Source of the DNA: a virus | Virus record (IMG/VR): IMGVR_UViG_3300045421_000292 | Coordinates: 1-20,164 of that record | Length of the DNA stretch: 20,164 nt | Reading direction: 5' to 3' (one strand) | Shown here: one piece after another, positions 1-2,032 of the stretch | Position numbering within the stretch: the stretch's first letter is position 1 | Layout of the letters: each line of letters starts with the position of its first letter | The notes under the pieces: model-generated | Database searches by the model: none | Told to the model about the DNA's origin: nothing | What the model saw: the letters and a program-made list of their open reading frames with translations, nothing else | Translations under genes and position numbers: made by a program

Positions 1-140
1 TGCGCAAGGCGGCCGAGAGCGGCGGCGTCACCTACAAGGGCACCGCCAAGGCGATGCGCGACCGCCTCAAGGGCCAGGCCGAGCGCTGGATCCCCGATGC
101 GGCGACGTTCGGCGCGCCGGGGCCGCGGGGTGCGGCATGA
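1..140 (+). CDS. C-terminal end of an unidentified phage gene (partial)
   Basis: An open frame enters from the left edge (first full codon at base 3) and stops at TGA 138-140, giving about 45 residues. The visible part is basic and helical-looking (motifs KGTAKAMRDRLKGQAERWIP and a Gly/Ala/Pro tail). I do not recognise the family. The next gene begins 16 bases later on the same strand, so this is probably the first visible member of the early operon. Such a basic tail could belong to a replication or DNA-binding protein, but the fragment is too short to say. Confidence 0.5.
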   Translation, partial: RKAAESGGVTYKGTAKAMRDRLKGQAERWIPDAATFGAPGPRGAA

Positions 141-156
141 CGCCGGAGATCGTGTG

Positions 157-381
157 ATGCGCGGCAGCGATACCCGGACCGGTCCGATCGAGATCCTGGC
201 GCAGCAGCTGCGGCCCGGCGACCGGTTTCAGCACGACGGCGCGGCGTGGTTCGCGGTGTATGTTGCGGTGACGCATGGCGGGCCGGTTGCCGTGCGGGCG
301 CAGGCGACAGCCGGCAATACGATCCTGTCGGCGCAGACTGAGATGACGCTGGCAGGGGATGAGATCGTGAGGTTGCGATGA
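157..381 (+). CDS. Small hypothetical phage protein, 74 aa
   Basis: This frame encodes a compact 74-residue protein with a beta-rich look: LRPGDRF, then a Trp-Phe-Ala-Val-Tyr strand, then further hydrophobic strands and a DEIVRLR end. I chose ATG 157 over an upstream ATG at 97 because GGAG at 145-148 sits eight bases before it and because the upstream start would overlap the preceding gene. No family is recognised; small beta-barrel proteins of this kind are common in phage early operons. Its stop (TGA 379-381) lies in the first copy of a 25-base tandem duplication whose second copy supplies the start of the TnpB-like gene, so the two genes were probably once directly coupled. Confidence 0.6.
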   Translation: MRGSDTRTGPIEILAQQLRPGDRFQHDGAAWFAVYVAVTHGGPVAVRAQATAGNTILSAQTEMTLAGDEIVRLR

Positions 382-407
382 GGATGAGATCGTGAGGCTG
401 CGATGAG
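357..407 (+). repeat. 25-base tandem duplication at the gene junction before the TnpB-like gene
   Basis: Bases 357-382 and 382-407 are the same sequence (starting GGATGAGATCGTGAGG) with one difference, T374 versus C399. The first copy contains the stop of the 74-aa gene; the second contains the GAGG ribosome-binding site (394-397) and the ATG (403) of the TnpB-like gene. At the matching place in the first copy there is an ATGA (378-381) in which the TGA is the upstream stop. Without the duplication the two genes would overlap by this ATGA. Confidence 0.9.
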
Positions 408-1836
408 TGATACCGAAGCCGAGATTGTGCGGCGCTACAACTTCAAGCTTTATCCGACGCACGCTCAGGCCGCGGCGCTGGATCGCATCCGCCGCCTGCA
501 CGCGACGTTCTACAACGCGGCGCTTCAGGAGCGGATCGACGCCTACCGGCTGGCGGGGAAGACGCTGACGCAATACGACCAGAGCAAACACATAAAGGTC
601 GTACGGGCCGACGATCCGGACTATGCGGCGCTGTCGGCTGACAGTCTCAACGGCACGCTCGCGCGTCTGGATAGGGCCTTTCAGGCGTTCTTTCGCCGCG
701 CCCGGGCCGGCCAGGGCGCGCAATCCGGCTTTCCGCGTTACAAGCGCAGCGACGACTACCCGGGTTTCTGGCATCGGTGGAAGAACGGATGGGCGATGAC
801 GCTTGGCCCTTCCGGCAAATCGGGGCGGATGTATGTCAAGGGAGTTCCGGGTGAACTGACCTTCCGCGGGCGGTTTCCGGCGCCACCCACCAGAATTCTG
901 ACTTGCGACATCCGCCTTGAAGGCGGCGTCTGGTGGGCGTCGGTAGCGGTCCGCATAGCGGCGCGCATGCGCCAGGACCACGAATATAAGGGCGAGGTCG
1001 TCTTCGACCTTGTCGAGACATTCGCGCGCATAAGGCGCGTGGACCGCGGACACGCCGCGGGGCCGGACGACGCGGGAATTCCCGCGGAAGATGGCCGAAT
1101 CATCCAACCACATCTGGGGGTTGGGGCTGCATCGGGTGCACACACCCCGGAAACCGGGGGTGACCGTGGGGGAAAGCCCCTGCGATCTTCCGCACCGGCC
1201 GGTGCACACACCCCGGAAACGGGGGGGGACCGTGGGAGCGGATGGTCCATGCCGTTCACGGCAACCGGCGCACACACCCAGGAAGCGGGGGGTGACCGTG
1301 GGGCAAAAGGCGAGACGTTGGAGCTGCGACCGGGTGCACACACCCCGGGAACGGGGGGTGACCGTGGGACGACGCCCTACGAGGCCGCGCAACGCGTAGA
1401 GCGCTTGCAACGCAGGATGGCCACATGCAAGCGAGGGTCCCAACGCTACCGGCGCTTGCGCCGACTCAAGGCCAGGATTGAGGCTCGGGCCGCGCGGCAA
1501 CGCAGAGAGCGGCTCCACGTGTGGACGACGGCTATCGCGCGGACGTTCGCCGAACTGACGATCGTGTCGCCTTCAATCAAGGAGACAACCCGGTCGGGTC
1601 GAGGCACTGAGCGCAGCCATGGCGCCGCCGTCGCGGTCAAAGCCGCGCTCAACCGTCACATTTTGGCGATGGCGCCGGCGACCGCGGTTGCGATGTTGGA
1701 ATACAAGATCGCCGAACGCGGAGGGATGGCACAGGTTGTGCGCGCCGGTTCTCATCCCGCCGAACTAGGCAATGCCATCGTTTCAGCCACCCAAGAAAAC
1801 CGCAAGTTGAGGAGAGCAATACGCAATGCACACTGA
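403..1836 (+). CDS. TnpB/Cas12-like (IS605 OrfB family) protein with a CRISPR-like array inside its frame; probably nuclease-dead
   Basis: Residues 1-200 resemble the N-terminal half of TnpB: YNFKLYPTHAQ at the start, a YNAALQERIDAYR helix, ALSADSLNGTLARLDRAFQ, FFRRARAG and a FPRYKR motif. A RuvC-I-like strand follows (VVFDLVETFARI, Asp202). Residues 245-322 are encoded by the array at 1135-1368 and read four times as GAHTPETGGDRG or a near copy. The family pattern resumes at once with YEAAQRVERLQRRMA and KRGSQRYRRLRRLKARIEAR (about 325-370). Without the array the length is 399 aa, normal for TnpB. Where TnpB has the RuvC-II VEDL glutamate, this protein reads IVSPSIKETTRSG (about 387-399). 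The Cys4 zinc finger and the RuvC-III DxNAA motif are absent. Known TnpB proteins are RNA-guided nucleases; loss of catalysis with retention of the fold would leave an RNA-guided DNA binder. It has no transposase A partner or IS ends, and its end overlaps the next gene by 11 bases. Confidence 0.8.
   Translation: MSDTEAEIVRRYNFKLYPTHAQAAALDRIRRLHATFYNAALQERIDAYRLAGKTLTQYDQSKHIKVVRADDPDYAALSADSLNGTLARLDRAFQAFFRRARAGQGAQSGFPRYKRSDDYPGFWHRWKNGWAMTLGPSGKSGRMYVKGVPGELTFRGRFPAPPTRILTCDIRLEGGVWWASVAVRIAARMRQDHEYKGEVVFDLVETFARIRRVDRGHAAGPDDAGIPAEDGRIIQPHLGVGAASGAHTPETGGDRGGKPLRSSAPAGAHTPETGGDRGSGWSMPFTATGAHTQEAGGDRGAKGETLELRPGAHTPGTGGDRGTTPYEAAQRVERLQRRMATCKRGSQRYRRLRRLKARIEARAARQRRERLHVWTTAIARTFAELTIVSPSIKETTRSGRGTERSHGAAVAVKAALNRHILAMAPATAVAMLEYKIAERGGMAQVVRAGSHPAELGNAIVSATQENRKLRRAIRNAH
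1135..1368. CRISPR. Mini CRISPR-like array: four 36-base repeats, three 30-base spacers, inside the TnpB-like frame
   Basis: Repeats lie at 1135-1170, 1201-1236, 1267-1302 and 1333-1368, exactly 66 bases apart. Each starts GGTGCACACACCCCGG (or one to two changes) and ends GGACCGTGGG or TGACCGTGGG. Differences from the consensus are few: one in repeats 1, 2 and 4, three in repeat 3. Spacers are 1171-1200, 1237-1266 and 1303-1332; they are unrelated to each other. Each repeat can fold: CACCCC pairs with GGGGTG, and an outer CAC with GTG. A 36/30 layout is typical of class 2 (types II and V) arrays and fits the TnpB/Cas12-like host gene better than the about 61-base period of type I-E. No AT-rich leader or adaptation genes are visible. 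The array would be transcribed with the operon. Whether it makes guides is inference. Confidence 0.8.
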
Positions 1837-2032
1837 TCTCGCCGAATGCATCGCGACCGCCCGCGCCGCCCGAGATCGCGTCTTGGACCAGAGCCTGCCG
1901 GTTCAGGTCGCGAACGCCGTCGCTGCCAACAACGCGACAATCGTCACTGCGCATGCGCTGAACCTGCGCATGCAGTTGTTCGAAGCCGAGCGCCGGCAGG
2001 ACAATATCCTCGCCCCGCCGAAGTCTGACTGA
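1826..2032 (+). CDS. Small hypothetical protein, 68 aa, coupled to the TnpB-like gene
   Basis: The ATG at 1826 lies inside the last codons of the TnpB-like gene (stop 1834-1836), in another frame, with AGGAG at 1810-1814 upstream. The 68-residue product is predicted to be mostly helical (LAECIATARAARDRVLDQ, then ATIVTAHALNLRMQLFEAER) with a short polar tail. It has no membrane segment or cysteine motif. I do not recognise the family. The 11-base overlap implies translational coupling, so the two products may be made together; whether they interact is not known. It could also simply be a conserved small early phage protein. Confidence 0.65.
   Translation: MHTDLAECIATARAARDRVLDQSLPVQVANAVAANNATIVTAHALNLRMQLFEAERRQDNILAPPKSD

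Follow-up and report, generated by a model that had tools for sequence, protein, structure and literature searches.

TnpB excises guides from its own messenger RNA (mRNA) (PMC10278001). The locus described below bears on how TnpB, which takes a single guide from its mRNA end, became Cas12, which works with multi-guide arrays. TnpB is reported to have become associated with arrays of clustered regularly interspaced short palindromic repeats (CRISPR) on about 50 independent occasions, together with repeated inactivation of the RuvC site (PMC12669027); RuvC inactivation is recurrent and comes with silencing by binding (PMC12669027, PMC11013384), and TldR proteins are phage-carried, nuclease-dead TnpB-like repressors (PMC13418256). 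Here we describe a virus record of 20,164 bases without a host genome (IMGVR_UViG_3300045421_000292; hereafter the window), in which four CRISPR-like repeats and three spacers lie in frame inside a TnpB-family open reading frame (ORF), 403–1836. The CRISPR-like array within a TnpB-family frame is of a known kind, and its anatomy is new. To our knowledge, no described system carries its array inside the effector frame, and we found none described in the open-access literature. Such a gene would combine protein and guides in a way not seen before: messenger and guide would compete for one RNA, and the phage would have a highly compact device for silencing. Were it only a fossil, it would still document spacer-like integration within a gene.

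TldR, like the 403–1836 product, is TnpB-derived, appears with an inactivated RuvC site and is found on temperate phage (integrase and tail genes are present in the window), but it uses a single guide RNA from its own locus, whereas the gene described here has three spacers and CRISPR-like repeats inside its coding sequence. TldR represses a defined target, whereas neither a target nor a partner gene was found for 403–1836 in the collections searched. Type V-U4/Cas12n and other TnpB-like type V systems also combine a TnpB-sized effector with an array of hairpin repeats; in V-U4/Cas12n-like relatives the array lies downstream with a period of 61, whereas here it is inside the gene with a period of 66, a different repeat and an apparently defective RuvC site, and the association at this site is conserved in no relative. 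Cas12m (type V-M), a small array-associated Cas12, silences by binding and without cleaving double-stranded DNA, but it has ~600 residues, long insertions and an outside array, and its likeness to the 403–1836 product is at the level of the fold only (Z about 13). IS200/IS605 TnpB shares the fold and gives the closest sequences (up to ~40% identity in the N half); unlike it, the 403–1836 gene lacks the catalytic Glu, RuvC-III and the zinc ribbon, has no adjacent tnpA that we could find and leaves no space for an omega-RNA on its 3′ side. The CRISPR mini-arrays of phages are likewise short, and no other cas genes were seen in our fragment, but the present array sits inside a TnpB-family gene and has no known matching host repeat.

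A CRISPR-like array within a tnpB-derived frame

The array has a period of exactly 66, and its 234 nucleotides (78 codons) are in frame in ORF 403–1836. When the window was scanned with the 35-nucleotide repeat consensus at up to three mismatches, exactly four matches were found, against none in 100 shuffles. All four copies differ from one another, with pairwise identities of 89–94%, and the three spacers agree pairwise at 8–9 of 30 positions (27–30%), which is the random level. CRISPR arrays are recognised by near-identical repeats of ~21–48 nucleotides, regular spacing and unique spacers of similar length, and the 36/30 array has this anatomy. An earlier sequence-only reading of this DNA had described four 36-base repeats at exact 66-base spacing with three unrelated 30-base spacers, and its coordinates were confirmed. 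The six-pair stem of the repeat is kept in all copies except at two cells of the comparison; in copy 3, one pair of the stem is broken. Compared with shuffles, the repeat hairpins folded with z of about −1 to −1.5 (+0.4 for copy 3).

All 477 codons of the ORF are uninterrupted, whereas 0 of 2000 shuffled sequences of equal composition stayed open. On the opposite strand, an ORF of 483 residues (67–1518, minus strand) is open across the array too, so that open frames say little in such GC-rich (guanine- and cytosine-rich) DNA. Stop-free spacers are expected by chance in 45%, and the openness of the spacers is therefore uninformative.

At fourfold degenerate third positions, pairs of repeats agree in 83%, compared with ~34% expected at saturation under assumed third-position frequencies, and the codon-position GC pattern of the gene is lost within the array. 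Conserved fourfold sites together with random spacers suggest that the unit is maintained as DNA or RNA, as in CRISPR, and not solely as a coding tandem repeat; peptide selection or simple duplication does not readily yield conserved synonymous sites beside a randomised neighbour.

Other identities for the repeat were considered and rejected. The possibility that it is a remnant of the relatives' omega-RNA was not borne out, as a repeat profile found nothing convincing in 166 fetched loci. No Rfam family matched at gathering score, and lax hits in 900–2100 were not credible on the repeats. A TIGR array was set aside, the 30-nucleotide spacer having no second conserved segment and no Tas-like gene being seen.

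The flanking protein and its catalytic site

CRISPR arrays mistaken for protein are known (PMC7673337), but unlike in those cases the flanking protein is real in 403–1836. The N half of the product matches PF12323 (TnpB helix-turn-helix, 1.3e-6) and guided_TnpB (NF040570), and the C half matches PF01385 (OrfB, 1.6e-5, below the curated cut-off) and the Cas12f and Cas12u4 profiles of PADLOC, in agreement with the earlier proposal of one open frame with two TnpB-like halves. An AlphaFold model was built on alignment A5 (20 sequences). Its predicted local distance difference test (pLDDT) score is mostly 75–97 in the N lobe, reaches 95 and higher in the central helices and is 50–85 in the degenerate RuvC core. 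The array encodes residues 245–322, a stretch mostly at a pLDDT of about 30–55; residues 216–302 and 311–320 score below 50 and have no fold, suggesting that a TnpB-like protein could accommodate the array as a loop on its surface. The best matches among solved structures are ISDra2 TnpB (Z 19.9, root-mean-square deviation 6.5 over 331; Z 19.1, root-mean-square deviation 4.6 over 319), followed by Cas12f, Fanzor2, TranC and Cas12m at Z 13–15; matches of Z < 12 were left uninterpreted. By both fold and sequence, the product belongs to the TnpB/Cas12 superfamily.

The RuvC-I aspartate D202 is invariant in alignment A5. The RuvC-II Glu, in contrast, was found in 125 of 135 relatives, with the remainder gapped or misaligned there and mostly short ORFs, and is replaced by V/S/P (IVSPSIKE) in the 403–1836 product only. 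RuvC-III and the zinc ribbon are missing from the product in the alignments, and it thus lacks the RuvC D-E-D triad plus zinc ribbon of an active TnpB nuclease. With the RuvC-II Glu replaced and RuvC-III and the zinc ribbon missing, the protein is probably nuclease-dead. A relocated RuvC-II acid, for example E394, may exist, since TnpB proteins with rearranged active sites have been described (PMC10278001).

The RuvC-I aspartate and the KRGS motif are 141 residues apart in the product (P0001) versus a median of 41 in the relatives, which indicates an insert specific to the 403–1836 gene. Two other placements of RuvC-I were rejected. The first deep alignment put the relatives' RuvC-I on the GGDRG of the translated repeat and was overruled in favour of D202 by alignment A5 and a local alignment; for a ‘VRVDRG’-like stretch near D214, the distance from the preceding strand fits worse than for D202.

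Table 1 Features of the tnpB-derived gene, its array and the following ORF
Feature	Position	Strand	Evidence
tnpB-derived ORF, 477 residues, array in frame	403–1836	+	ORF calling, profile matches, shuffle test
N lobe (WED/REC) of the TnpB fold; identity with TnpB of Alphaproteobacteria up to ~40%	418–996	+	alignments, model
D202 codon, RuvC-I aspartate; the relatives' next W-G replaced by L	1006–1008	+	alignment A5, local alignment
Repeat 1, 36 nucleotides	1135–1170	+	repeat detection, consensus scan
Spacer 1, 30 nucleotides	1171–1200	+	no database match
Repeat 2, 36 nucleotides	1201–1236	+	repeat detection, consensus scan
Spacer 2, 30 nucleotides	1237–1266	+	no database match
Repeat 3, 36 nucleotides, most diverged, stem weakened	1267–1302	+	repeat detection, consensus scan, folding
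Spacer 3, 30 nucleotides	1303–1332	+	no database match
Repeat 4, 36 nucleotides	1333–1368	+	repeat detection, consensus scan
C half: helices after RuvC-I, degenerate RuvC core	1369–1833	+	alignments, model
68-residue ORF, start overlapping the end of the tnpB-derived gene (operon-like), in the usual 3′ omega-RNA place	1826–2032	+	coding signal, own frame

Relatives, repeats and targets

TnpB relatives were collected from plasmids, viral contigs and genomes. Their best identity to the product is ~40% in parts; most come from Alphaproteobacteria and others from Beta- and Gammaproteobacteria. The majority are ordinary ~400-residue proteins. An array inside the gene was seen in 0 of 135 relatives. 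The sequence-only reading had proposed looking for homologues with different spacers at the same site, and none was found because no close relative turned up in the searched collections. It had also named, as a sign against an array, homologues in which the ‘spacers’ are conserved as protein, and no relative found carries the insert at all. Arrays directly beside a TnpB-like gene were detected in only 4 of 167 loci, two on Corynebacterium plasmids (L005 and L006) and two in viral records (L066 and L074); their arrays all have a period of 61 and always lie downstream of the gene. From this anatomy and the general features of that group, we take these four to be V-U4/Cas12n-like.

The earlier reading had proposed searching the spacers against phages, plasmids and alphaproteobacterial genomes. 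None matched among 50,697 phages and 72,556 plasmids, their first 19–20 nucleotides had no match in viral contigs, and spacer 2 had none in 385 alphaproteobacterial genomes at three mismatches. Self-targeting within the window reached 20/30 at best. Relatives of the repeat were likewise absent from the viral contigs and, at three mismatches, from the 385 genomes. These absences are weak, because the collections may leave out the nearest records of the window and metagenomes lay outside the scan.

Possible function and alternative explanations

One possible interpretation, which we favour tentatively and hold to be short of probable, is that ORF 403–1836 is a phage-domesticated, RuvC-inactivated TnpB relative with an intragenic guide array that binds rather than cuts. 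This reading draws on an array beyond chance, conserved fourfold sites, a mostly kept stem and TnpB-like flanks and fold; on a disordered array-coded loop between confident domains and a RuvC-II Glu replaced only here; on relatives with array partners and the published array associations, RuvC inactivation and guide excision from TnpB's own mRNA; and on the lack of a free 3′ untranslated region for an ordinary omega-RNA. More doubtful is the specific proposal that this single phage gene joins a nuclease-dead TnpB-type protein and an in-frame multi-guide array, with one transcript serving as messenger and guide precursor. The sequence-only reading had placed the array in a TnpB/Cas12-like effector forming a minimal, self-contained RNA-guided system. 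The CRISPR-like architecture inside a TnpB-family frame stands, but the protein is probably a nuclease-dead derivative and not an ordinary nuclease, which makes a self-contained cutting system unlikely, whereas binding or silencing is allowed by the anatomy.

Every step after transcription in the following scheme is conjectural. The operon mRNA would be translated to the full protein, with the array becoming a flexible loop, or alternatively would be cut at the hairpin repeats into repeat-spacer guides. The cutter could be a host RNase or the 403–1836 protein acting outside its RuvC site. The protein would then bind the guides and, with them, sit on DNA that they match, in rival phages, in plasmids or in the host, and would block transcription or replication there without cutting, as TldR and Cas12m do. 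Expression would be limited by one RNA serving as both messenger and guide source. The period of 66 equals 22 codons, and units could be gained or lost without a frameshift.

Several observations weigh against this guide-array interpretation. The repeat hairpins are only modestly more stable than shuffles, and the four repeats differ, with the stem of copy 3 weakened. Omega-RNA processing by TnpB requires an intact RuvC site (PMC10278001), which the 403–1836 product appears to lack, so that guide maturation would depend on host RNases or on another site. No protospacer turned up in the searched collections, a promoter-like site was looked for and not found, and no relative above ~40% identity was found in the plasmid, viral-contig and genome collections, leaving a single contig. 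Truncation and a broken catalytic site are also just as compatible with a tnpB gene in decay.

Along this line, the locus could be a fossil, in which Cas1-Cas2 integrated spacers outside a CRISPR locus and thereby duplicated a repeat-like stretch of the gene, or a small array was captured, in a dying tnpB gene whose guide function is gone. We consider this somewhat unlikely. Spacer integration outside arrays is documented by Nivala et al. 2018, to go by its citation in PMC11788318, and the diverged repeats, the loss of catalytic parts and the C-terminus and the failure to find targets or relatives in the searched collections would all fit; however, nothing interrupts the 477-codon frame, both of its halves can still be recognised, its last bases are shared with the next ORF, and landing in a gene for an RNA-guided protein would be a coincidence.

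It is less likely that the tnpB gene was only the landing place of a phage mini-array whose repeats imitate those of the host, so that host Cas proteins use the guides against rival phages. Phage mini-arrays with host-identical repeats are common (PMC11656645), and the present repeat is palindromic like many CRISPR repeats. Such arrays, however, usually have one or two spacers and host-identical repeats, whereas here the copies differ and the repeat was missing from the genomes and viral contigs searched, a weak point for a record without a host genome.

A purely coding origin, in which a linker is built of 22-residue units (GAHTPETGGDRG and 10 variable residues each) and the RNA has no role, seems improbable. 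The unit is in frame and translated as a disordered, hydrophilic loop, and three of the six differences between copies are synonymous, but random spacers beside well-conserved fourfold sites and the lost codon-position GC pattern argue otherwise. That a CRISPR array and a tnpB contig were fused by an error of assembly or binning, conceivable for a viral-contig record without reads to check against and raised as an objection by the earlier reading, is very improbable, as both junctions are in frame with the TnpB halves in the correct order, the four copies differ and every repeat and spacer is unique.

Gene neighbourhood and related loci

The gene lies at the end of a temperate phage that carries early or integration functions: ORF 1826–2032 is followed by an excisionase-like helix-turn-helix protein and an integrase, and then by tail genes on the opposite strand. 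That ORF 1826–2032 takes the usual 3′ place of the TnpB guide RNA fits a guide source elsewhere and proves nothing. A profile search of the neighbouring ORFs, in a window that begins 402 bases upstream of the gene, gave no TnpA match. A near-perfect 25-nucleotide tandem duplication at 358–407, immediately before the start of the tnpB-derived gene, is possibly a scar of its arrival. As clues to the host, a 572-residue tail-region protein has only distant relatives (~30%) in alphaproteobacterial genomes, and one distant integrase was found.

Further observations concern the four loci with downstream arrays. In L006 (3352–3484), a run of 21 bases in the last spacer (TCTGCGCATAAACGGTCACAC) recurs without change in the plasmid immediately beyond the array, and part of the motif is also present in spacer 2; self or regulatory targeting by these spacers is possible. 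The sister plasmid L005 (1428–1638) has a like array with the same spacer twice in a row, and its effector gene is absent from the PLSDB gene table. The array behind the TnpB-like gene has about eight repeats in L066 (4701–5190) and about a dozen in L074 (4741–5420). The repeat of L066 is GTCCGGCCCGGGCGCGCAGGGGCTGACCG and that of L074 a close variant, and its 3′ end resembles the GGGGGTGACCG of the window repeat.
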